This document shows, piece by piece, positions 2 through 20,871 of a stretch of DNA of 64,000 nt. The DNA comes from Planctomycetota bacterium. GTDB taxonomy: Bacteria > Planctomycetota > Planctomycetia > Pirellulales > UBA1268. The notes under the pieces were generated by a model. That model worked only from the letters and a program-made list of their open reading frames with translations. It made no database searches and was not told the origin of the DNA. A program made the translations under genes and the position numbers. How positions within the stretch are numbered: the stretch's first letter is position 1; every line of letters starts with the position of its first letter. The stretch lies in contig QWOP01000025.1 in assembly GCA_003669605.1 (NCBI GenBank), positions 1-64,000 on the forward strand, read 5' to 3'.

Positions 2-1717
2 GCCTTTCTTCGTGATCTCGGGAGCATGAATGACGAGATCGTCGCCCACACGCGCGGTCGCTGTGCGGCGATTTGGGGGAACGTGCGGGCCGTGTTCGGC
101 AGCCATGAGGCGATCCTCGGCCGCGTGCCGCCGCTCGGCCTCCGCGGTGAGGACGGCCGGACGCGGAAATACAACGCCGCCTTTGTCGCTGCCGACGGGA
201 GCCTCGTGGGCAACGGAGTGTTCTCCGGCTCCACGCCGAAATCGCTCCTTCCCAACTACCGCGAGTTTGACGACGCCCGGCATTTTTATTCGCTGCCGAA
301 GCTCGCCCAGGAGCTCGGCGTGGCGCCTGCCGATCTCGTCGCGCCTTTCGAGCTCTCGATCGGCGGGGAGCAGCGGAAGGTGGGCGTCCTCCTCTGCGAA
401 GACCTGTGGGACGACGACTACGCCTTCAAGCCGGTCGACGTCCTGAAAGCGAAGGGGGCCGATGTGATCGTCAACCTCTCCGCCTCCCCGTTCGGCATCG
501 GCAAGCAGGCGAAGCGCGATCGTGTCCTCGCCGCCCGCACCCGCGGCTGCGAGTGTTTTTATGTCAATGCAACCGGTGCCCAAGATAACGGCAAAAATGT
601 CTTCCTCTTCGATGGCGCAAGCCCCGTCTACGTCGATGGCCGCAAAGTCGCTCAAGGGGCGTCGTTCCGCGAGGACAGCGTCTCGTTGGTCTCGGGCCTC
701 GTGGCTGATCCACCCGAGATCGCCAAGGTCCATGCCGCAATTGTTGCGGGACTGAAGGCGACGCTCGAGCGGATCGGGGGGCGGAAGGTCGTCGTCGGGC
801 TCTCTGGCGGCATCGATTCGGGGGTCGTCGCGAGCTTGTGCGCTGAAGCAATTGGGAGTGACAACGTCATCGGCGTCACCATGCCCAGCCGGTTCAACTC
901 CGCGACCACGCGCAGCCTCGCCGCCGAGTTGGCCAAGCGGCTCGGGATCCGTTTTCTCGTAGCGCCGATCGAAGAGGCGGTCGACGTCACGCGCCAGCAG
1001 ATTGAGGGGCTCACCGGGGCTCCCGTCGAAGGTCTCGTCGACGAAAACATCCAGGCCCGCGACCGCGGCAGCCGGGTGCTCGCGGGGCTCGCTGCGCAGA
1101 TTGGTGCCATCGATCGATGCGGCGTCGTGTTTACCAACAACGGCAACAAGACAGAGCTCGCCCAGGGCTATTGCACGCTCTACGGCGACGTCGGCGGCGC
1201 GGTGGCACCGATCGCGGATCTTTACAAGACACAGGTCTACGATCTCGCCCGCCACATCAACGCCACCCGTGGTCAGCCGATCCCTGCCGGGATGCTCGCG
1301 GTAAAACCCTCGGCCGAGCTCTCCGCCGCCCAGAATCCGGAGCAGGGGGGGGGCGACCCCTTTCAGTTTGAGTATCACGATCGGCTCCTCTATCAGATGG
1401 TCGAACTGCGTCGAGACCCAGAAGAAATCCTCGCCGACTTCGCCGCTGGCCGGCTCGCGAAGACGCTCGGGCTTGCCACTGAAGAGACCGTCGTAGGGAC
1501 GTTCTTTCCCGACGCGGCTGCGTTTGTTGCTGACCTCGAGCTCGTCTGGCGGCGGTTCAAGGGAAGCTTCTTCAAGCGGGTGCAGGCGCCGCCGATCGTG
1601 GCGGTGAGCAAGCGGGCCTTCGGCTTCGATCTCCGCGAGGCCCAGATCGGGGCTCGGTTTACGCGGGGATATGCGTTGCTCAAGGAGGAGGTTCTGGCCG
1701 CAGCCCGCGACGGGTGA
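2..1717 (+). CDS. nadE: Glutamine-dependent NAD+ synthetase, 5' end cut by window
   Basis: Makes NAD+ from deamido-NAD+ and ATP in the cytoplasm, taking ammonia from glutamine. The frame is open to the left edge, so the first visible ATG (base 26) is probably internal and the start of the nitrilase-like domain is missing. Counted from that ATG, the nitrilase nucleophile lies in LLCEDLW (Cys124). The C-terminal synthetase domain carries the PP-loop motif SGGIDSG (from Ser260), and the later segment FTNNGNKTELAQGY is typical of the family. The Cys-bearing amidase half marks the glutamine-using form rather than the short ammonia-only form. A hairpin-forming repeat follows the stop, so it is probably transcribed separately from the next gene. 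Confidence 0.95.
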   Translation, partial: AFLRDLGSMNDEIVAHTRGRCAAIWGNVRAVFGSHEAILGRVPPLGLRGEDGRTRKYNAAFVAADGSLVGNGVFSGSTPKSLLPNYREFDDARHFYSLPKLAQELGVAPADLVAPFELSIGGEQRKVGVLLCEDLWDDDYAFKPVDVLKAKGADVIVNLSASPFGIGKQAKRDRVLAARTRGCECFYVNATGAQDNGKNVFLFDGASPVYVDGRKVAQGASFREDSVSLVSGLVADPPEIAKVHAAIVAGLKATLERIGGRKVVVGLSGGIDSGVVASLCAEAIGSDNVIGVTMPSRFNSATTRSLAAELAKRLGIRFLVAPIEEAVDVTRQQIEGLTGAPVEGLVDENIQARDRGSRVLAGLAAQIGAIDRCGVVFTNNGNKTELAQGYCTLYGDVGGAVAPIADLYKTQVYDLARHINATRGQPIPAGMLAVKPSAELSAAQNPEQGGGDPFQFEYHDRLLYQMVELRRDPEEILADFAAGRLAKTLGLATEETVVGTFFPDAAAFVADLELVWRRFKGSFFKRVQAPPIVAVSKRAFGFDLREAQIGARFTRGYALLKEEVLAAARDG

Positions 1718-1718
1718 G

Positions 1719-1800
1719 GAAAAAAGGTGCCAGCCACCTTTTTCCCGGGGTGGACGGATCACCAGCGAGGTGGGCAAATGGTGGCTGGCACCTTTTTCCA
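1719..1800. repeat. REP-like pair of inverted hairpins
   Basis: Two copies of one element face each other: aaaaaggtgccagccacc at 1721-1738 and its exact reverse complement at 1780-1797. The first copy can also fold alone, with a 9-bp stem (aaaaaggtg/caccttttt) and a 5-base loop, ending in a T run. The pair sits between the nadE stop and the next start, where it could act as a bidirectional terminator. The layout resembles paired REP elements. I see no transposase nearby. The inverted arrangement is directly visible; mobility and function are inferred. Confidence 0.75.
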
Positions 1801-1829
1801 GTCCGGTTGGACGAAACAGGAGGAGCGAG

Positions 1830-4436
1830 ATGCGATTGTTCACCGTCGGTGGCGTGCTGGTGGCCTGGCTGGCGATGCTTTTCGTGTTCCGGCCGGCTTC
1901 GGCCGGAGAGCCTGTCCGCGTGATGAGTTTCAACATCCGCTACGGCACCGCCGATGACGGTGTCAACGCCTGGCCGAACCGGAAACAGTTCCTCGCCGAC
2001 ACGATTGCCAAGTTCGATCCCGATCTCCTCGGCACGCAGGAGACGCTGGCTTTTCAGCGCGACGAGCTCCTTGGGCTTCTCCATCGCTACGAGGCTGCGG
2101 GTGTCGGCCGCGACGATGGACGTGAGCAGGGGGAGATGGCGGCGCTGTTTTTTAAGACGGAACGTTTTCAGAAGACGGCCGGCGGAGATTTCTGGCTGTC
2201 GCCGACTCCCGACGTGGTCGGCAGCAAAGGCTGGGATGCCGCCCTGCCACGGATCGCCACCTGGGTAAAGCTCGCCGACAAGACCGATCCGGCCGCACTG
2301 CCAACCCTGTTTCTCAACACCCACTTCGACCATCAGGGGGCTTGGGCCCGCCGCGAGTCGGCCGCGCTTATCCGCCGCTGGCTCGGGGAAAATGGCGATG
2401 GCTGCCGGCTTGTTGTCAGCGGTGATTTCAACGCCGGGGAAGGGACGCCCCCCTACGAAGCCCTCTTCAATGCTGGCGACGACGGCCCCGCAACGCTTGT
2501 CGACACCTTCCGCGTGGCGGTGCCGACGCGCGAATTGGCTGGCGCGGAAGGGACGTTCACTGGGTTTGACGCCCGCAACACCGGCGGCGTGCGGATCGAC
2601 TGGATCGGCTGCTCGCGGGACTGGCGGGTGGCTGCAGGGGGCGTCGACCGCAGTGAGCGCGACGGCCGCACCCCGTCGGATCACGCCGCCGTGACGGCCG
2701 TTTTGCAACCAGGAGCCGAGCCGGCCGGCGCAGGGACGGCCGACGCTCGCTTGGCCGAGTTTTTCCGCGACCACCTCCAGGAGAGCTTCCGGCTTCGGCC
2801 GCTTGAGGCCAGTGCGCTCGGCGACCACTCCTTTGATCACCTCCTCGACGACATTTCCCCTGAGGCTCGGGCCGGATGGCTCGACCACTGGAAGCGACAG
2901 CTTGCGGCTCTTGAGCAGGCGTTCGGCGGTGCGGCACCTGAAAAGCTCTCCGTCGATGGCCAGATCGACTACGAAATCCTCCGCGAAGATCTCCTCCGCA
3001 GCATCTGGCTGGCCGAGAACGAGCGGCCGTTCGAGCAGGACGCGCGGGTCTACGGCGCTTACACGACCGACTCGGTCTACGCGCTCCTGACGCAGTCGAC
3101 GCTGCCCAAAGAAAAAAACCTCGAGAATGCGATTGCGCGGATGAAGCTCATTCCGGCGGTCGTTGACGCGGCCAAAGTGTCGCTCGTTGACCCGACCCCG
3201 ACGATGCTCGAAACGGCGATCGGGCAGAACCGTGGGTCGGTCGCTTTCTATTCTGGCGATCTCTTTTCACTGGCCAGTGATTCGCCGCAACTGCCGGCGC
3301 TCCGTGAGGCTGCCAAGCCGGTTGTCGTGGCGCTTGAGCGTCATCAGGCATTCCTCGAGAAGGAACTCCTCCCCCAGGCCCGTGGACCTTGGCGGCTCGG
3401 GAAGGAGAAGTTTTCCCAGAAGCTCGAGCTCGTTCTCGACATGGGGTGGGATGCCGATCGCGTCGTTGCCGAGGCCCGGGGCGAGTTTGTGCGGGTGCAC
3501 CGTGATCTGATTGCCGTGTCGCGGCAGCTGTGGCACAAGCACTTCTCCGGCAGGCCGCTGCCCCCGGAGGATGATGCTGGGCGGAGAGAGCTTGTGCGGC
3601 TCGTGATCGGCGCGGTGAACCGTGATCATGGCGCGCCCGAGACGCTCGTCCGCGATGCGCGAGAGACGGTGGCGGGGCTGAAGGAGTTCATTCGCACTTT
3701 CGATATCGTCAGTCTCCCTGAGCCTGACCGCTGCCGAATTCTCGAGATGCCGGAGTTTCGCCGCGGCAATTCCGCTGCCTATCTCGAAAATGCCCTGCCG
3801 CTCGATCCCAGTGGCCCCAGCACCTACGCCATCAGCCCGCCCCCGGCGTCATGGGATGAACGCCGCCGAGAAAGCTTCCTCGAGGAATACAACCGGCAGA
3901 TGCTGCGGATCCTCACGATCCACGAAGCCTATCCGGGGCATTATGTGCAACTGGAGTGGTCGAACCGTTGCCCGTCGCTCGTCCGCCGCGTGCTCCATTC
4001 GGGGACAAATATCGAAGGCTGGGCGGTCTACACCGAGCAGATGATGCTCGATCAGGGCTACGGTGAAGGCGACTTGGCCCTCCGGCTGATGCAACTCAAG
4101 TTTTATTTGCGTTCTGTCTGCAATGCCCTGCTCGATCATGGCATGCACTGCGAAGACTGGAGCGACGAGAAGGCCCTCCAGTTCCTCATCGACGACGCCT
4201 TCCAGACGGAGGGGGAAGCGCGGCCGAAAATCGTCCGCGCCAAGCAGAGCTCCGTGCAGCTCTCCACCTACTTCGCCGGCCGCACCGCCCATCACCGTCT
4301 CCGCCAAGAGATCCAGCGCGAGCAGGGGGAGGCTTTTGAGCTCGGCCGCTACCACGAGGCGGTGCTCTTCTGCGGCTCGGTGCCGGTGAAGCATCTCCCG
4401 GTGCTCGTCCGCCAGCGGCTCAAGTCGCCGCGGTAG
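1830..4436 (+). CDS. Exported endonuclease/exonuclease/phosphatase domain fused to DUF885 peptidase-like domain
   Basis: An 868-aa protein with a signal peptide (residues about 1-26) and two unrelated enzymatic folds. Residues about 28-292 match the endonuclease/exonuclease/phosphatase fold, with MSFNIRYG, GTQET, NTHFDH, SGDFNAG, RIDWI and SDHA in the right order. Residues about 305-868 match DUF885, with the zinc-site signature HEAYPGH at 698-704 and a glutamate in the downstream NIEGWAVYTEQ. DUF885 proteins are usually separate exported putative metallopeptidases. I chose the ATG at 1830 because AGGAGG lies just upstream and the signal peptide begins there; the frame itself opens earlier, inside nadE. 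Nuclease, sphingomyelinase-like or phosphatase activity cannot be told apart from sequence alone. The frame runs through both domains without a break. Confidence 0.88.
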   Translation: MRLFTVGGVLVAWLAMLFVFRPASAGEPVRVMSFNIRYGTADDGVNAWPNRKQFLADTIAKFDPDLLGTQETLAFQRDELLGLLHRYEAAGVGRDDGREQGEMAALFFKTERFQKTAGGDFWLSPTPDVVGSKGWDAALPRIATWVKLADKTDPAALPTLFLNTHFDHQGAWARRESAALIRRWLGENGDGCRLVVSGDFNAGEGTPPYEALFNAGDDGPATLVDTFRVAVPTRELAGAEGTFTGFDARNTGGVRIDWIGCSRDWRVAAGGVDRSERDGRTPSDHAAVTAVLQPGAEPAGAGTADARLAEFFRDHLQESFRLRPLEASALGDHSFDHLLDDISPEARAGWLDHWKRQLAALEQAFGGAAPEKLSVDGQIDYEILREDLLRSIWLAENERPFEQDARVYGAYTTDSVYALLTQSTLPKEKNLENAIARMKLIPAVVDAAKVSLVDPTPTMLETAIGQNRGSVAFYSGDLFSLASDSPQLPALREAAKPVVVALERHQAFLEKELLPQARGPWRLGKEKFSQKLELVLDMGWDADRVVAEARGEFVRVHRDLIAVSRQLWHKHFSGRPLPPEDDAGRRELVRLVIGAVNRDHGAPETLVRDARETVAGLKEFIRTFDIVSLPEPDRCRILEMPEFRRGNSAAYLENALPLDPSGPSTYAISPPPASWDERRRESFLEEYNRQMLRILTIHEAYPGHYVQLEWSNRCPSLVRRVLHSGTNIEGWAVYTEQMMLDQGYGEGDLALRLMQLKFYLRSVCNALLDHGMHCEDWSDEKALQFLIDDAFQTEGEARPKIVRAKQSSVQLSTYFAGRTAHHRLRQEIQREQGEAFELGRYHEAVLFCGSVPVKHLPVLVRQRLKSPR

Positions 4437-4544: not shown

Positions 4545-7500
4545 GTGATCGGCATCAACCGCTCGTGCTTTGCTCTGGGGCTGCTGGCTCTCCTGGCGCC
4601 GGCCTGGCCCGCCGTGGCGCCGGCCGCCGAGATCGTCCCTGCTGAGAAGCTCTTTCGACGGGACAACCTCGTCGCCTGGTGCATCGTGCCATTTGACGAC
4701 GAGGCCCGGTCGCCGGCTGACCGGGCGGCGATGATGAAGCGGTTGGGAATCGTGAAATATGCCTACGACTACCGGGCGGAGCATGTGCCGCAGTTCGACG
4801 ACGAGATGAAAGCTATCCAAGCGGAGGGGATCGAGCTGATCGCCTGGTGGTTTCCTGGCGAGCTCAACGACGAGGCGCGGCTGATCCTCGGCGTCCTCAA
4901 AGCCCACGGCATGACGCCCAGCCTGTGGGTCAGTGGGGGTGGCGGGCCGACGGCTTCGCCAGAGGAACAACAGGCCCGCGTGGCAGCCGAAGCCGCCCGG
5001 ATCGGTCCGATCGCTGAGGCGGCCAAGAATATCGGTTGCACCGTCGGGCTCTACAACCATGGCGGCTGGTTCGGCGAGCCGGAGAACCAAATCGAGATCA
5101 TCGAAGCGCTCCGGGCCGGCGAGGGGAAAATCACGAATGTCGGCATCGTCTACAACCAGCATCATGGCCATCTCCATGCGGGCCGATTCCGTGAGTTGCT
5201 CGCGCGGATCAAGCCCTATCTCCAGGTGCTCAATCTGAATGGCATGTTCGCCGATGGCGAGGCCCGCGGCCTGAAGATCGCTCCTGTCGGCACCGGAGAA
5301 CAGGATCTCGAGCTTCTGAAGATTGTTCAGGAGAGTGGTTTCGAGGGGCCGTTTGGGATCCTCAATCACACGCAACTCGACGCTGAGGATCGGCTCCGCG
5401 ACAACATCCAGGGGCTCGGCTGGGTGGCTGCGAAGCTCGACGGCAAGGATCCCGGAGCACTGCCGGGAATGAAGACCTGGCAGGCACCGCCGGCCACGGT
5501 ACCGAAGGCCGCGTCGAGCGGACCGCCGGGGGGCATTCCCCACGATCCAGCCCTCGTTGCGGCGCTTGCTGCGGAGGCGCGTGGGGAGGGAGCTAGCGCC
5601 GCCAGTGGCGCTCGGGTGTTTGTCCGCCACACGCTGGCCTGCGTCTCTTGCCACAAGGTGGGGGAGCATGGCGGCACCGTCGGCCCGGCACTGACGAAAC
5701 TTGGCGCCGAGAAGACCGTTGAGCACATTGCCGAGTCGCTTCTCTGGCCACAGCATGCCATTCAACCGGAATACCGCTCGGTGACGGTGATCACCTCCGA
5801 TGGCGGTAGCCGCCGCGGCTACCGGGAGCGGGAAGACAACGCCGTGGTTGTACTCCGCGACCCGGCCACGGGGGCCCGCGAGGAGATCGCCAAGGGGGAG
5901 ATTGAGGCCATCGAAGAAACCGGGAGCCTGATGCCCGACGGGCTGATGCAGGGAGTCCATCCGCGCGACAGGCGCGATCTCGTCCGCTTCCTCGCCGACC
6001 TCGGCCGGCATGCAGACCTGCCGGCGGCCACCATGGCCGCGATTGTGGCCGCCGCCCACCCCACCACAGCAGCGGCCTTCGAGCCCGATCGGGCACCGCT
6101 TTTTCCCGAGGCTTTTCCCGACTGGCAATTGCCTGTCAACCGGGACCGGCAGTACGACTTCTATGCCAAGGAAGCGCGCTGGTTCCGGGCGCTATGCCCC
6201 ACGCCGTCACTGCTGCCGCAGTATCCCGGCCTCGACAGCGGAAAACTGGGGCACTGGGGCAATCAGAACGAGGAGACCTGGCGCGACGGCCGCTGGAACC
6301 AGACCGTTCTCGGTTCGCTGCAGGCAGGGGTGCTCCATGCCTTCGGGAAGACGGTTGTCCGCGGTGTCTGCATCCAGCTCGGGGAAGGAGTCAGCGTATG
6401 CTTCGACCCCGACTCGATCAGCTATCCCCTGGCCTGGAAGGGAGGATTCCTCACGCTCTCTGACACCCGCTATGGCTTCCTCGGTGGCCTCGCGCCGGCT
6501 GGAGAGGAGATGCCGCTGCCGCCAGCGGTCACGCAGCCCGCCGCAGGCGTGGTGGCATATGAAGGGTTTGTCCGACAGGGAAGCCGAGTCGGCTTTCTCT
6601 ACACGCGTGACGGCGTCCGGATGCTGGATGTCCCGACGCTCAAGGAAGGGGCTGTTGAGCGGGTGGTTGGCCCGGTTGCAACGCATCCTTTCGCCGCCAT
6701 GCTCGCCGGCGGCGCCCCCCAGTGGCCGGAATCGATCGAGACCAAGATCATCCGTGGCACCCAGGTGCCCTATGCGGTCGACACCTTTGAGCTGCCGACC
6801 AAAAATCCCTGGAAAGCGCTGCTGTTCTGCGGCGACCATGATTTCCTCCCCGACGGCTCGATCGTCGTTTGCACGATGCAGGGGGATGTGTGGCACGCCC
6901 TTCCGTTGGATCCCGGACCGGATGGGGATCCCCGCCGGCTGCGGTGGCGGCGGATCGCCGCCGGGCTTCATCACCCGCTCGGCATGACGATCGTTGACGG
7001 CACGATCCATGTGCTTGGCCGCGACCAGATCACGAAACTCATCGATACCAATGCCGATGGCGAGGCGGACCGCTACGAGTGTTTCTCGCGGGCCTACACC
7101 GCCTCTGCAGGGGGCCACGACTACACCTGCGGGCTCGTTCGCGATGACCAGGGCCGCTTCATCACCGCCTGCAGCGCCCAGGGGCTGGTGCGGATCTCAG
7201 CCGATGGGAAGGATGCTGAAGTGCTGGCCACGGGCCTGCGCAACTCCGACGGCGTCGGTATCTGCCCCGACGGGACGATCACCGCCGGATCGAGCGAGGG
7301 AGACTGGGTGCCGGCGAGCCTCGTCGGGGCCGTCCCTCCGGGGAGGCCCCAGCCAGGGACTCCACCGCTCCATTTCGGGCACAAGGGCCCGGTCTCGGGC
7401 CGCGTCCCCGATCTGCCGCTGGTCTATCTCCCGCGGGGACTCGACAACAACTGCGGCGGGCAGGTGTGGGTGCCGGAAGGAGCAATGGGGCCGCTCGGCG

Positions 7501-8594
7501 GGCAACTTGTCCATCTGTCGTTTGGCGCGGGGACGGCGATGGTGCTCCTCCGCGACGAGGTGGCCGGGCAGCAGCAGGGGGCGATCGTGCCGCTGCCGGT
7601 GTCGTTTCGGTCTGGATCGCACCGGGGACGATTCAATCCCCGCGACGGGGCGATCTATGTCAGCGGAATGGCTGGCTGGGGCACCTACACGGCCGCCGAC
7701 GGTTGCCTGGAGCGCGTCCGTTACACCGGCCACAGGCTCCAGCAGCCGGTCGGCTTCCATCTCCACGACAACGGCGTGCAGATCGATTTCTCGGAGCCGA
7801 TTGATGCGGCGGTGGCCGCCGATCCCGCCCGGCATTTCGCGCAGTGCTGGAACTACCGCTACAGCGGCGGATACGGATCGGACGAATGGTCGACACAGCA
7901 CGAGGGGCTCCGTGGCCACGATTCTTTGCCGATCACCGCTGCCATCTGCTCCGCCGACTTGCGATCGCTGTTCCTGGAGATCCCGGAGATTCAGCCGGTC
8001 GACCAGTTGCAGTTGTTGGTGACGAGCAACGCCGGCAGCGAGCACGATCTGGTGATCACCGCCAACCGGCTCGACAAGCGATTCCCAGGGGCGGCCGAGC
8101 GGACGCTGCCGTTGCTTCCGCATCCGTTGGCGGCCGACGTGGCCCGGGCACTGCACACCCGCCCCAACCCGTTCGCAGCGCCGATCGAGGGGGCGCGGCA
8201 GATCGCGATCGCGGTTGGCCCGAACCTCTCCTATCTCCCCAAGACAGTCGCCGCGAGTCCCGGTGAGGCGATCTCGATCCAACTCACCAATCCCGACACC
8301 GTGCCCCACAACTGGGCGCTCCTCCGGCCCGATTCGCTTCCCGTGATTGGGGCGGCGGTGAATGCCTTGGTGACCGATCCGGAGGCGGCGGCCCGAAACT
8401 ACGTGCCGGAGTCAGCCGATGTGGTGGCCTGGACCGACATTGTGGCGCCCGGTGGCACCGCGACGATCCAGTTCCGCGTCCCCGATCAGCCGGGCCGGTA
8501 TCCCTTTATCTGCACCTTTCCAGGGCATTGGATGGCGATGCAGGGGGAACTTGTCGTGGCCGAACAGCCGGGGGGGGCACGGGCGGCAAACTGA
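4545..8594 (+). CDS. Secreted mosaic protein: TIM barrel, cytochrome c site, DUF6797-like region, propeller, cupredoxin
   Basis: A 1349-aa exported protein starting at GTG 4545 (GAGGGG upstream), with a signal peptide of about 27 residues. Residues about 30-310 look like a xylose-isomerase-type TIM barrel (sugar phosphate isomerase/epimerase family). A haem c site CVSCH is at 366-370, followed by the usual PVC-type segment (GPALTKLG, LLWPQHAIQPEYRS). Residues about 510-720 look like DUF6797 (PGLDSGKLGHWGNQNEE). A PQQ/sorbosone-dehydrogenase-like propeller follows. The C-terminus is an azurin/auracyanin-type cupredoxin with likely copper ligands His1255, Cys1323, His1328 and Met1332, at the azurin spacing C-x4-H-x3-M. 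The probable role is periplasmic oxidation of a sugar-like substrate with electrons passing through haem and copper. The domain calls come from motifs; the substrate is unknown. Confidence 0.87.
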   Translation: MIGINRSCFALGLLALLAPAWPAVAPAAEIVPAEKLFRRDNLVAWCIVPFDDEARSPADRAAMMKRLGIVKYAYDYRAEHVPQFDDEMKAIQAEGIELIAWWFPGELNDEARLILGVLKAHGMTPSLWVSGGGGPTASPEEQQARVAAEAARIGPIAEAAKNIGCTVGLYNHGGWFGEPENQIEIIEALRAGEGKITNVGIVYNQHHGHLHAGRFRELLARIKPYLQVLNLNGMFADGEARGLKIAPVGTGEQDLELLKIVQESGFEGPFGILNHTQLDAEDRLRDNIQGLGWVAAKLDGKDPGALPGMKTWQAPPATVPKAASSGPPGGIPHDPALVAALAAEARGEGASAASGARVFVRHTLACVSCHKVGEHGGTVGPALTKLGAEKTVEHIAESLLWPQHAIQPEYRSVTVITSDGGSRRGYREREDNAVVVLRDPATGAREEIAKGEIEAIEETGSLMPDGLMQGVHPRDRRDLVRFLADLGRHADLPAATMAAIVAAAHPTTAAAFEPDRAPLFPEAFPDWQLPVNRDRQYDFYAKEARWFRALCPTPSLLPQYPGLDSGKLGHWGNQNEETWRDGRWNQTVLGSLQAGVLHAFGKTVVRGVCIQLGEGVSVCFDPDSISYPLAWKGGFLTLSDTRYGFLGGLAPAGEEMPLPPAVTQPAAGVVAYEGFVRQGSRVGFLYTRDGVRMLDVPTLKEGAVERVVGPVATHPFAAMLAGGAPQWPESIETKIIRGTQVPYAVDTFELPTKNPWKALLFCGDHDFLPDGSIVVCTMQGDVWHALPLDPGPDGDPRRLRWRRIAAGLHHPLGMTIVDGTIHVLGRDQITKLIDTNADGEADRYECFSRAYTASAGGHDYTCGLVRDDQGRFITACSAQGLVRISADGKDAEVLATGLRNSDGVGICPDGTITAGSSEGDWVPASLVGAVPPGRPQPGTPPLHFGHKGPVSGRVPDLPLVYLPRGLDNNCGGQVWVPEGAMGPLGGQLVHLSFGAGTAMVLLRDEVAGQQQGAIVPLPVSFRSGSHRGRFNPRDGAIYVSGMAGWGTYTAADGCLERVRYTGHRLQQPVGFHLHDNGVQIDFSEPIDAAVAADPARHFAQCWNYRYSGGYGSDEWSTQHEGLRGHDSLPITAAICSADLRSLFLEIPEIQPVDQLQLLVTSNAGSEHDLVITANRLDKRFPGAAERTLPLLPHPLAADVARALHTRPNPFAAPIEGARQIAIAVGPNLSYLPKTVAASPGEAISIQLTNPDTVPHNWALLRPDSLPVIGAAVNALVTDPEAAARNYVPESADVVAWTDIVAPGGTATIQFRVPDQPGRYPFICTFPGHWMAMQGELVVAEQPGGARAAN

Positions 8595-15066: not shown

Positions 15067-18000
15067 ATGCTGCGGATGGTCGTCGTCGTCGCAATCGGAT
15101 CGCTATGGGCCGCCAGTCACCTGCCGCGGGCCACAGCGGTGGAATCGGCACCGACATTTCGGGCCGGTGCGGCCGCCGTCGATATCACCCCCCGCAATGC
15201 TCCTCCAGAGCCCCCTTCGATCGTCGCCGGCGGCTTTCTCGAGGGACGCGCCGACCGCGTTCACGACCCGCTGCTGGTGCGGGCGATGGTCCTGGATGAC
15301 GGTGGGAGCGAGGGCCACAAACCGGTGCGGCTGGCACTTGTCGTCGTCGACACCTGCATGATGCCGCAGACCCTGATCGACGAGGCCAAGGTGCAGGCAG
15401 CGGCGCGATCGGGCATTCCGGTCGAGCGGATGATGGTCTCGGCGACACACACCCATTCGGCTCCCGCAGCGATGGGGTGCCTCGGTACCCGTCTTGACGC
15501 CCCGTATGCCGCCCGTCTGCCGGGGGCGATCGCCGAGGCAATTGTGGCTGCGAACGACCGGCTGGCAGCGGCGCGGCTCGGTTGGGGATTTGTCGATGAT
15601 TGGCATCACACCCACAACCGCCGCTGGGTGCGGCGGCCGGAGACGCGTGTCGTCGATCCGTTTGGTAATCCCACCGCTCTGGCCAACATGCATCCGGGAC
15701 ATCTTTCCAAAGAGATCATCGGGCCATCGGGTCCGGTCGATCCGCAGCTGTCGGTGATCTCGATCCAGTCTGCTGCGGGAAAACCGCTGGCGGTGTTTGC
15801 CAACTATTCGCAGCACTATTTTGGGTCGCCAGCCGTCTCGTCAGACTATTTCGGACTCTTCAGCCGGTTCGTTACCTCGGCCCTCGGTGAGCCCGGCGAC
15901 GGCAACGGCCCTTTTGTCTGCGCGCTCTCGCAAGGGACCAGCGGCGATCTAATGTGGATGGACTACGGCTCCGCGCAGCGTCCCACAGCGATCCAGGAGT
16001 ACGCCGCCGCGGTGGCCCGCAACGCAGTCGCCGTGCTGGAATCGATCGAGTATCGCGACCACGTGTCGCTGGCGATGACTGAAAAAGTCCTGCCGCTTGC
16101 CTACCGGGTGCCTGATGCGGCGCGGCTGGCATGGGCCAAGCCGATTGCCGCGGGGATCATCGATGACCTTCCCCAGAACATCCCCCAGGTCTACGCCCGC
16201 GAGGCGCTGATCCTCAACGAGCGGAAGCAGACGAGCCTCACCCTCCAAGCGATCCGTATCGGTGATGTCACGATCGCCACGCTCCCCAACGAGGTCTATG
16301 CGCTTACCGGACTCAAACTGCGCAGCCGCTCTCCGGCGGGCATGCACTTCAACGTCGAACTGGCCAACGGTGCCGAAGGCTACATCCCGCCGCCAGAGCA
16401 GCACGTCCTCGGCGGCTACACCACCTGGCCTGCCCGGACTGCCGGCCTCGAAGTGGCTGCCGAAACGAAGATCGTCGAGACCCTCGTGGCCGCGCTTGAG
16501 GAGGTGACGGGGAAGCCGAGGCGTGTGCCGGGCAAGCGCCACGGACCGGCGGCCGAGGGGCTGCTGGCTGCCAAGCCGATTGGCCTCTGGAGGCTCGACG
16601 ACGAGGATGGTGCCGCACCGCACAATGCCGTCGCGGGTGGCATGCCAGCGCGGCTTGCACCTGGCTTTGCCTGGTATCTCCCCGGCGTTGGCACAGGGAG
16701 CGGCTGCGGCGACGGCGAGGCCCTCGTGCCATCGGCGTTTTCGCAATCCGACTCCATCAACCGAGCGGTTCATCTGGCCGGCGGTCAACTCATCCTTCCC
16801 GGCAAAGCCCCGGCCGGCGATGCCACGCTCATCGCCTGGGTGTGGCTGGGCGAGCGAAGTGGCGCAAGTTCCCGCCAAGGGGCGCTGTGCACTGGCCTCG
16901 CCGCCGAACCACTCATCGCCCGGCAGGATGCCGACCACGCGCTCGGCTTTGCGCTTGGCGAGCAGCGGACAGAGATGCGCTTCCGCGCCGACGACTGGCA
17001 TCAGGTGGCAATCGTCCGCCGCGGCGATGGAGTCGAAGTCTATCTCGACGGCCACCCGCAACCGGTGCTGGAGGGGAGAGCCGCGACCGCGGCGACGGCG
17101 ATCGTCCTCGGAGAAGGCCTGCAGGGAAAGCTCGACGAGGTGGCGCTCTTTGACCGCGCTCTCGATCCGGTCGGGATGGCCGCGTTGTGGGAGGAGTCTG
17201 GTCTTGGCCAAGAGCGAACCGCTGCCGAGACGCGACGGCGCGAGGCAGACGAAGAACGCCTTCGGCTGGCAAACCCGCCCCCGTTTCCCGCTGACCATGC
17301 CGCGCAGGTGGCGGCGGTCCGGCCGGTGCAGGCCTGGCCGCTGGCCGAGTCGCCTGAGGGGCTCACGGTCCAGGGGGCCGTCGGCTTCGATCCGCGGGCC
17401 TTCGCCACCTTCCGCGGCGGCCGGCTGGCGGGGCACAGCGACGCTCTCGATGACGACTGGAGTGTCGCCTGCTGGTTTCGCAGCGATCTCGGCAACGAGT
17501 CCCGCCCCGTTGCCGCCTATCTTTTCTCGCGCGGCCCCGCCGATGCCGCAGGGGCACCGGGGGATCATCTTGGCATCGGCGGCTCGGCCCCGCCGACTGT
17601 CCCCGGGCGGCTGATTGTCTTCAACGGCAATGAGGGCAACGAGATTCTCTCCGGAAAGACCGTCCTCCCGCCCCGGAGTTGGAATCATGTCGTCATGGCC
17701 CGAAAAGGGAGCCGGGTGACGCTGTGGCTCAATGGTGCAAGCGAGCCGGAGATCGAGGGGGAGATTGTTCCGACGGCTCCCGACGCGCGGGAGTATTTCC
17801 TTGGCAGCCGCAACGATCATTTCGCCCCTCTCGATGGCCATCTCGCCGAGGTCGCCCTCTTTGATCGGGCACTCGAGGCTGCCGAGGCCGCGGCCCTTTT
17901 TGCCGCTTCAGGCCTGGAGCCTGGGAAGCCGCGGCTCGCGCCGCCGTTGCCTCTGGCGGCACCGGTGCTGCCGCGATCGCCTGAGGAGACCCGGCGGGGG

Positions 18001-20871
18001 ATCCACGTGCCGCCTGGATTCCGGGTGGAGCTTGTCGCCAGCGAGCCCGATGTTCTCGATCCGGTGGCCTTCGACTGGGATGCCGAGGGGCGGCTGTGGG
18101 TGGTGGAGATGGCTGATTATCCAAGCGGCATGGATGGCAAGGGTGCTGCTGGCGGCCGCGTTCGCGTTCTCGAAGACGCTGACGGCGACGGCCGCTACGA
18201 GACGAGCCGGCTCTTCGCCGAGGGGCTTTCCTTTCCCAACGGGATTGCCGTGTGGCGCGACGGCGTGATTGTCACCGCTGCACCGCAGATCCTCTTCCTG
18301 CAGGATACAGATGGCGACGGGGCGTGCGACCATGAGGAAGTCCTCATCGACGGCTTCATGGAGGGGAATCAGCAACTGCGCGTCAACGGCCTCCGCTGGG
18401 GGCTCGACAACACCCTGTGGTGCGCCAGTGGCGGACATCATCCGGGCCATGGCACCGAGACCATTGTCTCGTCACGGCGCAGTGGCAAGGATTACTCCGT
18501 TGGCAGCCACGACTTCCGTTTCGATCCCGATTCGGGGGAGGTGTGGATCGAATCGGGGCCGTCGCAGTTTGGCCGCAATCGCGACCCCTTTGGCCACTGG
18601 TTCGGAACGCAAAACGCCAATCCCCTTTGGCACTGGGTGATTGCCGATCGTTACCTCGCCCGCAATCCCTACGTGCCGGCCGGGAGTGCGATCCGGCATG
18701 TCGTCGGCCCCGACAGCCCGGTTGTTCATCCGGCGAGTTCCCCTGAAAAACGCTTTCATTCGTTCGAGCAGGCGGGGCGGTTTACCTCAGCCTGCGGGAG
18801 CACGATCGACGCTGGCCGGGGGCTCTTTCCATTCGTGGCCGGGAGCACGCGGCTCCACGCCTTCACCTGCGAGCCCTTCCACAATCTCGTTCAGCACAAT
18901 CTCCTTCGCGACGACGGCGCGAGTTTTGTTTCCGAGCGTCCGGCAGGGGAGGGGCCGACTGATTTTTTTTCAAGCGACGACCGCTGGTGCCGGCCGGTGA
19001 TGACGCGGATCGGTCCCGACGGGAATCTCTATGTGGCTGATATGTATCGGGCGATGATCGAGCATCCCGACTGGCTGCCGCCGGAAGGTCGCGAGGAACT
19101 CCTCCCGCAGTATCGGCTCGGTGACGACCGTGGCCGGATCTGGCGTGTGGTCCGCACCGGGGCTCCACCGGCTCGCTTCCCGGCAGCTGTTTCGGCAGCT
19201 GTTTCGGCATCAAAAGCGGCGGCGGATCTGGTCGCCCTTCTCGACGCCGACCAGGCCTGGCAGCGGGATTTCGCTCACAAGCTTCTTCTGCAGGAGCGTG
19301 AGCCAGCGCGGCGGGCCGCCGCCATCGGGCCCCTTTTCAAACTGGCGACGTCGAGCTCCCGCCCCGAGACGAGAGTCCAGGCGCTGTGGGCGCTCGAGGG
19401 CTTGCAGAGCCTCGATGACCAACTGCTCGTCCAGGCGCTGGCTGATCCTTACGCTGGCGTCCGCGAAAACGCCCTGCAATTGGCAGAGCGGCGGCAGTCG
19501 CCGGCGGTGATCGCGGCGGCGGTTGCTCTCGCCACTGATCCCGACGCCAAGGTCCGCCTTCAGCTCGCGCTTTCCTGTGGCGAGTGGGGGGAAGAGGAGG
19601 CGATGGTGGGGATAGCGCTTGTGGCGATCGCGTCGCAGGCGCCTGACGATCCCCTCTTCCGCACTGCCGTGATGAGTTCGGCGCTGCGGCATGCCGACGT
19701 GTTTGCCAGTGGCATCGCGCACGCTGGCCTGCACGTTGCCGCGGCCTACCGCGAGCCGCTCTTGCGGCAATCGCTCGGCCGCCGCGACACCGGCACGATT
19801 GGGGCCCTCCTAGCGGCCCCGCTCGCCCTCCCGCCGGACGAGCGAGTGGCGGCCCTCGATCCGCTTTTGGCCGACATGCAGCGCCTCGGGGCTGATCCCT
19901 GGAATCTTGCCGGGGAACAAGCCTCCGATAGGCCTGAAAGCGCCGCCCCGCCGCTCGCTGGAGTGGTGGCCGATCTTGATGGGGAACTGGCCCGCTGCCG
20001 GGACGTTGTCGGTGACACCGCTGCCAGTGACGACGCCCGTCGGGCGGCGGCGATCCTTCTGGCCCGCACAAGCCGCTGGCGCGACGATGGTATCGCGGCG
20101 CTTGCCGAGTGGCTCGGGGCCCGGATCGATCCGGCGATCCAGGCGGAGGTCATTGAGGTGATCATCCGCTCGGGGGCTGAGAGCGCTCCGGCGGTTCTGG
20201 CCGCCGCTTGGCCGGGCATGGGCCCGGGCTTGCGGAGTCTGGCGATCGATGGCTGGCTCTCGCGTGGCCCCTGGACAGCCGATCTTCTGGAGAGAATAGA
20301 GGCCGGGCTTGTCGGCGCCGGTTCGCTCTCGCTCCCGCAGCGCGACCGGCTCCTGCGTCTTGCTGACGCGGGCCTTGCGGCCCGGTCGCAAGCGCTCCTT
20401 GCTGTTGGCGCGTCCGCCTCGCGGCGTGATGTTGTCGAGCGTTACGCCGGGGCGCTTGCCGAGAGCGGCGATGCGCCTGCGGGGCGGGAAGTGTTTCTGC
20501 GGGTCTGTGCCAATTGCCACCGCCGCGGCGAGTTGGGGCGGGAGGTGGGGCCGAATCTGGCCACTGTCATCGAGCACGCTCCGGCGCGGCTCTTGGCCAA
20601 CATTCTCGACCCGAGTGCGGATATCCAGCCGGGCTACCAGGGCTCGACCTGTGTGCTGGCCACCGGGGAGGTTGTCAGTGGCCTGATCGCGGCGGAATCG
20701 GGGGGGAGCGTGACGATGAAGCTTGCCGATGGCTCGATCCGAAACATCGCCAGAGCCGAGATCGAGGAACTGGTGACGTCGAACCGCTCGTTTATGCCGG
20801 AGGGTGTGGAGGAGACGGTCTCGGTCGGGCAGATGCGCGACCTGATCGAGTTTCTCCGCGGGGGCTTGTGA
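15067..20871 (+). CDS. Giant exported mosaic: neutral ceramidase-like, two LamG, PVC-type dehydrogenase, HEAT-like repeats, cytochrome c
   Basis: A 1934-aa exported protein; ATG 15067 has AGGAGC 7 bases upstream and begins a signal peptide of about 25 residues. Order of parts: a neutral/alkaline ceramidase-like domain (about 30-480; AGAAAVDITPRN, SATHTHSAP, and GTSGDL with candidate nucleophile Ser292); two LamG/concanavalin-type lectin domains (about 495-710 and 755-955); a PVC-type dehydrogenase propeller (about 975-1370; PPGFRVELVASEPDVLDP); HEAT-like repeats (about 1390-1790); and a PVC-type C-terminal haem domain with CANCH at 1814-1818. The tail ending SFMPEGVEE is typical of that haem domain. 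The protein may bind a glycan or glycolipid, hydrolyse an amide, and oxidise a product. The domains are recognised from motifs; the combined function is inferred. Confidence 0.88.
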   Translation: MLRMVVVVAIGSLWAASHLPRATAVESAPTFRAGAAAVDITPRNAPPEPPSIVAGGFLEGRADRVHDPLLVRAMVLDDGGSEGHKPVRLALVVVDTCMMPQTLIDEAKVQAAARSGIPVERMMVSATHTHSAPAAMGCLGTRLDAPYAARLPGAIAEAIVAANDRLAAARLGWGFVDDWHHTHNRRWVRRPETRVVDPFGNPTALANMHPGHLSKEIIGPSGPVDPQLSVISIQSAAGKPLAVFANYSQHYFGSPAVSSDYFGLFSRFVTSALGEPGDGNGPFVCALSQGTSGDLMWMDYGSAQRPTAIQEYAAAVARNAVAVLESIEYRDHVSLAMTEKVLPLAYRVPDAARLAWAKPIAAGIIDDLPQNIPQVYAREALILNERKQTSLTLQAIRIGDVTIATLPNEVYALTGLKLRSRSPAGMHFNVELANGAEGYIPPPEQHVLGGYTTWPARTAGLEVAAETKIVETLVAALEEVTGKPRRVPGKRHGPAAEGLLAAKPIGLWRLDDEDGAAPHNAVAGGMPARLAPGFAWYLPGVGTGSGCGDGEALVPSAFSQSDSINRAVHLAGGQLILPGKAPAGDATLIAWVWLGERSGASSRQGALCTGLAAEPLIARQDADHALGFALGEQRTEMRFRADDWHQVAIVRRGDGVEVYLDGHPQPVLEGRAATAATAIVLGEGLQGKLDEVALFDRALDPVGMAALWEESGLGQERTAAETRRREADEERLRLANPPPFPADHAAQVAAVRPVQAWPLAESPEGLTVQGAVGFDPRAFATFRGGRLAGHSDALDDDWSVACWFRSDLGNESRPVAAYLFSRGPADAAGAPGDHLGIGGSAPPTVPGRLIVFNGNEGNEILSGKTVLPPRSWNHVVMARKGSRVTLWLNGASEPEIEGEIVPTAPDAREYFLGSRNDHFAPLDGHLAEVALFDRALEAAEAAALFAASGLEPGKPRLAPPLPLAAPVLPRSPEETRRGIHVPPGFRVELVASEPDVLDPVAFDWDAEGRLWVVEMADYPSGMDGKGAAGGRVRVLEDADGDGRYETSRLFAEGLSFPNGIAVWRDGVIVTAAPQILFLQDTDGDGACDHEEVLIDGFMEGNQQLRVNGLRWGLDNTLWCASGGHHPGHGTETIVSSRRSGKDYSVGSHDFRFDPDSGEVWIESGPSQFGRNRDPFGHWFGTQNANPLWHWVIADRYLARNPYVPAGSAIRHVVGPDSPVVHPASSPEKRFHSFEQAGRFTSACGSTIDAGRGLFPFVAGSTRLHAFTCEPFHNLVQHNLLRDDGASFVSERPAGEGPTDFFSSDDRWCRPVMTRIGPDGNLYVADMYRAMIEHPDWLPPEGREELLPQYRLGDDRGRIWRVVRTGAPPARFPAAVSAAVSASKAAADLVALLDADQAWQRDFAHKLLLQEREPARRAAAIGPLFKLATSSSRPETRVQALWALEGLQSLDDQLLVQALADPYAGVRENALQLAERRQSPAVIAAAVALATDPDAKVRLQLALSCGEWGEEEAMVGIALVAIASQAPDDPLFRTAVMSSALRHADVFASGIAHAGLHVAAAYREPLLRQSLGRRDTGTIGALLAAPLALPPDERVAALDPLLADMQRLGADPWNLAGEQASDRPESAAPPLAGVVADLDGELARCRDVVGDTAASDDARRAAAILLARTSRWRDDGIAALAEWLGARIDPAIQAEVIEVIIRSGAESAPAVLAAAWPGMGPGLRSLAIDGWLSRGPWTADLLERIEAGLVGAGSLSLPQRDRLLRLADAGLAARSQALLAVGASASRRDVVERYAGALAESGDAPAGREVFLRVCANCHRRGELGREVGPNLATVIEHAPARLLANILDPSADIQPGYQGSTCVLATGEVVSGLIAAESGGSVTMKLADGSIRNIARAEIEELVTSNRSFMPEGVEETVSVGQMRDLIEFLRGGL

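Follow-up and report, generated by a model that had tools for sequence, protein, structure and literature searches.

A planctomycete protein that joins a xylose-isomerase-like barrel without the canonical metal ligands to haem c, six-bladed propeller and blue-copper domains

The window analysed here is a stretch of 64,000 nucleotides from a Planctomycetota bacterium of the Pirellulales (UBA1268; GenBank assembly GCA_003669605.1, contig QWOP01000025.1, positions 1 to 64,000 of the forward strand), and our subject is the open reading frame (ORF) at 4545-8594, whose product carries four folds in a single chain: a xylose-isomerase-like TIM barrel, a haem c domain of the TIGR02603 type, a DUF6797 domain with a six-bladed beta-propeller, and an auracyanin-like cupredoxin (Table 1). 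This arrangement of four modules had been proposed from the sequence alone (the original prediction) and is supported by Pfam and NCBIfam profiles and by AlphaFold2 models, built from window and locus sequences, with structure comparison. One model covers residues 333-1345 (haem domain, propeller and cupredoxin; predicted local distance difference test score, pLDDT, 88; predicted template modelling score, pTM, 0.82) and the other residues 29-505 (barrel and haem domain; pLDDT 88, pTM 0.62), with a disordered linker at 316-329. Judging from its N-terminus, the product is most likely periplasmic or otherwise exported. An assembly artefact of a single metagenome-assembled genome (MAG) was considered and rejected, as 80 related loci, mostly from Planctomycetota and including isolates, were retrieved.

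Domains and conserved residues

The barrel was modelled with pLDDT values mostly above 85 and matches UlaE, YcjR and xylose isomerases with Z scores of about 20 as well as tagatose epimerases, which bears out the fold predicted for the front of the chain. Pfam AP_endonuc_2 matches residues 117-272 (E 2.3e-6), slightly below its cut-off. The same genome holds 24 hits of this kind, and a profile comparison with ten of its ordinary barrels gives a probability of 97.7% and an E value of 1.9e-12; fold and profile relationship together place the domain in the xylose-isomerase-like superfamily. The Glu/Asp/His/Glu set that defines metal-dependent sugar isomerases and epimerases is absent. In the alignment with the ten barrels, the canonical ligands are exchanged for Tyr170 (from Glu), Asn204 (from Asp), Asn230 (from His) and Leu273 (from Glu), and alignments with 3wqo and 4ovx agree wherever they are clear. 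Y170, N204 and N230 are invariant in 67 of 67 relatives, as are N171, H172, H206, H209, N232 and H275, while position 273 is Leu or Ile and H207 is the one histidine retained. The conserved residues sit at or just past the C-terminal ends of the predicted strands and outline an invariant or almost invariant pocket (W45, D75, W102, W128, Y170, N171, H172, N204, H207, N230, H275). By its residues, this pocket is conserved, yet differs from that of a metal-dependent epimerase, and ordinary epimerase chemistry appears unlikely because the four metal ligands are replaced. The original prediction had a canonical metal-dependent sugar-epimerase barrel feed electrons via haem to copper. Fold and domain order agree with this, but all four ligands are lost, three of them invariantly, and no redox cofactor is known in epimerases of this fold, so that we regard such an electron source as highly improbable; the canonical epimerase was rejected on the replaced ligands.

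The haem domain matches TIGR02603 over residues 352-484 with 81.3 bits against a cut-off of 68.15 (E 6e-23). Its CVSCH motif lies exactly where it had been predicted and is the sole CxxCH of the 1349 residues; C366, C369 and H370 are kept in 80 of 80 relatives and Met463 in at least 95%, and wherever a relative has the haem domain the motif is intact. The nearest solved relative is the dihaem cytochrome c Kustd1711 of Kuenenia (PDB 7zs0; PMC11791136), with which CxxCH and the distal Met align, but which has two haem domains and neither barrel, propeller nor cupredoxin.

DUF6797 (PF20601) was found with 29.7 bits against a cut-off of 24.9. The propeller resembles six-bladed propellers with Z scores of about 17-19.5, among them the sugar dehydrogenases 2ism (18.6), 3a9g (17.9) and 3das (17.6), and Glu918 is strictly conserved alongside His858, Arg899 and Asn900.

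For the cupredoxin, Pfam Cupredoxin_1 matches residues 1218-1338 over its cut-off, and the model superimposes on auracyanin A with a Z score of 18.7 and a root-mean-square deviation (rmsd) of 1.4 Å over 118 residues. Auracyanins A and B of Chloroflexus (2aan, 1qhq), separate unfused proteins, are the best matches by both sequence and structure. The fold together with the His-Cys-His-Met set, present in 85 of 85 relatives, assigns the domain to the type-1 copper proteins. It is not an azurin proper, as it scores 34.5 bits against the equivalog cut-off of 105.1 bits of TIGR02695 and has VPHN for MGHN. Hence the azurin-spaced ligand set of the original prediction is exact in its positions and in the spacing of the Cys-side loop, but its first ligand lies in VPHN and the nearest solved proteins are auracyanins. 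In sum, the profile searches gave matches over cut-off for cupredoxin, DUF6797 and TIGR02603 and one slightly under it for the barrel. Of the two findings that would have told against the prediction, a missing C-terminal cupredoxin fold or an unused haem motif, neither was made, both redox sites being intact and conserved.

Table 1 Features of the ORF at 4545-8594 and the basis of their assignment
Feature	Position	Strand	Basis or remark
Whole ORF	4545..8594	+	1349 aa, GTG start; alignment to close relatives starts at residue 1 (80-82%)
Signal-peptide-like N-terminus MIGINRSCFALGLLALLAPAWPAVAPAA	4545..4628	+	Read from sequence
Xylose-isomerase-like TIM barrel, residues about 40-305	4662..5459	+	AP_endonuc_2, AlphaFold2, structure matches, profile match
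Replaced metal-ligand positions Y170, N204, N230, L273	5052..5363	+	Profile alignment with ordinary barrels; alignments with 3wqo and 4ovx
Haem c domain TIGR02603, residues 346-487	5580..6005	+	NCBIfam model; nearest solved protein Kustd1711
CVSCH haem c attachment motif, residues 366-370	5640..5654	+	Sequence, conservation
Met463, probable distal haem ligand	5931..5933	+	Aligns with Met292 of Kustd1711 (PMC11791136)
DUF6797, residues 618-695	6396..6629	+	Pfam PF20601
Six-bladed beta-propeller, residues about 742-1061	6768..7727	+	AlphaFold2, structure comparison
His858	7116..7118	+	83/83; matched by eye to the catalytic His of soluble sugar dehydrogenases, a position that the hhalign match does not cover (PMC6881810)
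Arg899-Asn900	7239..7244	+	83/83; aligned with Arg-Asn of soluble sugar dehydrogenases (PMC6881810)
Auracyanin/azurin-type cupredoxin, residues 1216-1339	8190..8561	+	Pfam, structure and sequence matches
His1255, copper ligand (VPHN)	8307..8309	+	85/85
Cys1323-His1328-Met1332, copper ligands (CTFPGHWMAM)	8511..8540	+	85/85

Relatives, gene linkage and sugar context

Seventy-five relatives were classified by BLAST hits and gap length, LamG being confirmed by Pfam only in a few. They comprise proteins with barrel and haem domain (24), with barrel, LamG and haem domain (24), ORFs without barrel (21), members with the barrel encoded by a neighbouring gene (3), barrel-LamG proteins without haem (2) and one protein with a C-terminal barrel; a LamG insertion thus occurs in 26 of the 75. 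In L030, L032 and L117, two adjacent genes encode barrel and redox part; L031 (and the fragment L037) has them fused in reverse order, the barrel coming first elsewhere. The three neighbouring-gene members and the C-terminal-barrel fusion fall in one supported clade, which fits local splitting and re-fusion. The barrel is present in 14 of 15 genomes with the C-terminal part versus 19 of 244 overall (Fisher p 8e-18) and, among the unfused genomes, in 4 of 5 with the C-terminal part versus 5 of 229 (p 5e-6), relatedness of the genomes being ignored in both tests. Kuenenia stuttgartiensis or Akkermansia muciniphila appears in the MAG titles of L038, L039, L043, L056, L069, L107 and L110; of the Kuenenia-titled MAGs, several group with Planctomycetaceae MAGs in the tree, and these titles look wrong.

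A carbohydrate link is suggested by the domains and genes that accompany the family. Besides LamG, a ThuA domain has been added in L058, and a Gfo/Idh/MocA gene lies near several barrel-less members; these associations point to carbohydrates, in line with the earlier interpretation of LamG on planctomycete-type cytochromes (PMC5615132). The neighbours of stand-alone barrels are varied and were informative only in L149 and, loosely, in L139. At L149 (6559-8073, minus strand), a free barrel-LamG protein is encoded beside two Gfo/Idh/MocA oxidoreductases; its genome (G032) encodes the fused form as well. In the window itself, the ORF at 1671-4436 (plus strand) combines an endonuclease/exonuclease/phosphatase domain with a complete DUF885 domain and lies upstream of the barrel-haem-copper gene in eight near-relative loci. 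A further ORF of 1934 aa at 15067-20871 (plus strand), with a weak ceramidase-like N-terminus, LamG stretches, a DUF7133 propeller, HEAT repeats and a C-terminal cytochrome c, is another giant carbohydrate-type cytochrome of the same window.

The pairing of haem and blue copper extends beyond this protein. Among 30 genomes of the same taxonomic family, azurin-type matches are confined to large ORFs and contig ends, and in 18 of 18 inspected azurin-type ORFs outside the protein's own family a CxxCH motif follows 66-81 residues past the copper Cys. Haem-copper fusion is therefore general in these genomes, a habit of the taxonomic family. The intramolecular redox route of the original prediction accordingly holds in kind, as a built-in haem-copper pair, but not with the barrel as electron source. 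A second haem-azurin example is encoded in the genome of the window itself (L176, 1486-6798, minus strand), where a frame of 1771 residues holds a TIGR02604 propeller, an azurin-type domain and a TIGR02603 haem domain behind an N-terminus that looks GDSL-like by eye.

Candidate site of chemistry and electron path

In the reading that we tentatively favour, and which may well be right without our being confident of it, the protein is an exported planctomycete multidomain sugar-active protein with its own electron wire. The barrel, metal-less and often joined to a LamG lectin domain, would bind or process a sugar or sugar derivative; the propeller, with His858 and Arg899-Asn900, would be the likeliest site of oxidation, the barrel being the alternative seat of chemistry; electrons would be exchanged between the haem c and blue-copper domains of the fusion and then be delivered to the respiratory chain. 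Sugar as the substrate, the propeller as the catalyst and the order and direction of electron flow are all points that we infer. A haem-copper oxidase gene (COX1) is present in the same genome, and there is precedent for fused cytochromes that act as redox mediators within the enzyme (PMC6472588). Should there be a redox carbohydrate site, the propeller is a more plausible candidate for it than the barrel. Arg-Asn residues have been discussed as catalytic in soluble glucose dehydrogenase and AA12 enzymes (PMC6881810).

Several observations weigh against this reading. NHL propellers without known enzyme activity are equally close to the propeller (PknD, Z 19.5, tied), when solved structures were searched with its profile most matches were of the NHL type and none was a sugar dehydrogenase, and Pfam GSDH (PF07995) did not match the ORF. 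The match to planctomycete GSDH proteins in hhalign is weak (probability 55%, E 1.2e-4), although R899-N900 falls on their Arg-Asn pair, and on these alignments the resemblance to GSDH is a lead rather than membership. A phylum-wide search of 244 genomes for the pyrroloquinoline quinone (PQQ) synthesis gene pqqC does detect it in G155, but in none of the 15 carriers; a search limited to genomes of the taxonomic family gave no hit anywhere and is hence uninformative. Since pqqC was not found in any carrier, PQQ, if the propeller uses it, must be taken up. In G155 (L223), pqqC looks split over two adjoining frames, perhaps by a frameshift. Furthermore, no conserved operon names the substrate, gene surroundings being conserved only in near relatives; the placement of the barrel is uncertain in the model of residues 29-505, given its pTM and the disordered linker; and haem is dispensable in some members, as three relatives (L062, L102, L110) lack CxxCH and have a LamG-like stretch in place of the haem domain between barrel and propeller.

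The likeness to NHL binding propellers, the missing PQQ synthesis gene and the haem-less members would also suit a scaffold, in which propeller and barrel do no more than bind polysaccharides or protein partners, and electrons from another enzyme are passed along by haem and copper. The strict conservation of His858, Arg899, Asn900 and Glu918 and of the barrel pocket, however, suggests chemistry, and we consider a pure scaffold unlikely. Somewhat less unlikely, though still doubtful, is that the barrel itself is an enzyme of a new, metal-independent kind, a sugar lyase, isomerase or hydrolase with an Asn/His/Trp pocket whose reaction would precede or follow an oxidation elsewhere: its pocket at the C-terminal strand ends is invariant or nearly so, it occurs alone and with LamG beside sugar-type oxidoreductases, and YcjR, named a 3-keto-glucoside 4-epimerase, is among its nearest folds, but the fold matches include no enzyme of known activity without the metal site.

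Within the favoured reading of a sugar-active protein with its own wire, the direction of transfer between haem and copper may be either. The potential of azurin-type copper typically lies between those of the Kustd1711 haems with and without calcium. For these haems, about +350 to +385 mV was reported with calcium and about -116 to -145 mV without it, the calcium lying 6.9 Å from the iron and being held by backbone carbonyls, a propionate and water (PMC11791136); such a site is not visible in sequence. Because this solved relative stands at about +350 mV with calcium, transfer from copper to haem would, by analogy, be as possible as transfer from haem to copper.

Known systems and implications

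Most closely, the protein is a variation on the multidomain cytochromes of the Planctomycetes-Verrucomicrobia-Chlamydiae group (TIGR02603/TIGR02604; PSCyt with LamG, PMC5615132), which share the haem domain, propellers and LamG but have no barrel, and in which haem and azurin domains are adjacent rather than flanking the propeller. YcjR (6wn6), UlaE (3cqi) and D-tagatose 3-epimerase share the barrel fold, but they possess the Glu/Asp/His/Glu ligands and are not fused to redox domains. Nitrous oxide reductases top the Foldseek list; the cNosZ form has a seven-bladed CuZ propeller and a two-Cys CuA, whereas the protein described here has six blades and a one-Cys type-1 site. Like it, cNosZ combines a propeller with a cupredoxin and a cytochrome c on a single chain (PMC8139620). 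A CuA protein or nitrous oxide reductase was nevertheless rejected: the top Foldseek matches share propeller and cupredoxin but superimpose very poorly, at an rmsd above 20 Å, and CuA requires a two-Cys loop while Cys1323 is the single Cys of the domain. The PQQ-dependent pyranose dehydrogenase CcPDH (AA12) and soluble glucose dehydrogenase have a six-bladed propeller with His and Arg-Asn (PMC4332668, PMC6881810), and CcPDH offers a precedent for a PQQ propeller fused to haem and a carbohydrate-binding module (PMC4332668), but with haem b instead of c and with neither copper domain nor barrel. A description of a barrel-haem-propeller-cupredoxin protein was not found in the open-access literature searched, which does not prove its absence elsewhere. 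The statement of the original prediction that the full combination is without precedent holds for characterised proteins, to which it referred, but the architecture recurs in tens of genomes.

Planctomycetes and their relatives hold many large cytochrome proteins of unknown function with a suspected link to carbohydrates (PMC5615132). In the barrel-haem-copper family, a haem of this sort is connected with a carbohydrate-type barrel through fusion, gene adjacency and co-occurrence, and with a blue-copper domain as well, which makes the idea of self-wired oxidative sugar breakdown testable with one recombinant protein. Azurin hits in planctomycetes were put down to contamination or misannotation in a published survey (PMC8779525); this verdict is to be qualified, the azurin-type domains being genuine and embedded in large proteins. 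A further proposal, which we rate as rather unlikely in its entirety, is a self-wired sugar oxidoreductase with a new kind of active site, in which a barrel that gave up its metal for an Asn/His/Trp pocket works in one chain with a propeller of the dehydrogenase type, haem c and blue copper, the parts having come apart and fused again several times in planctomycetes.

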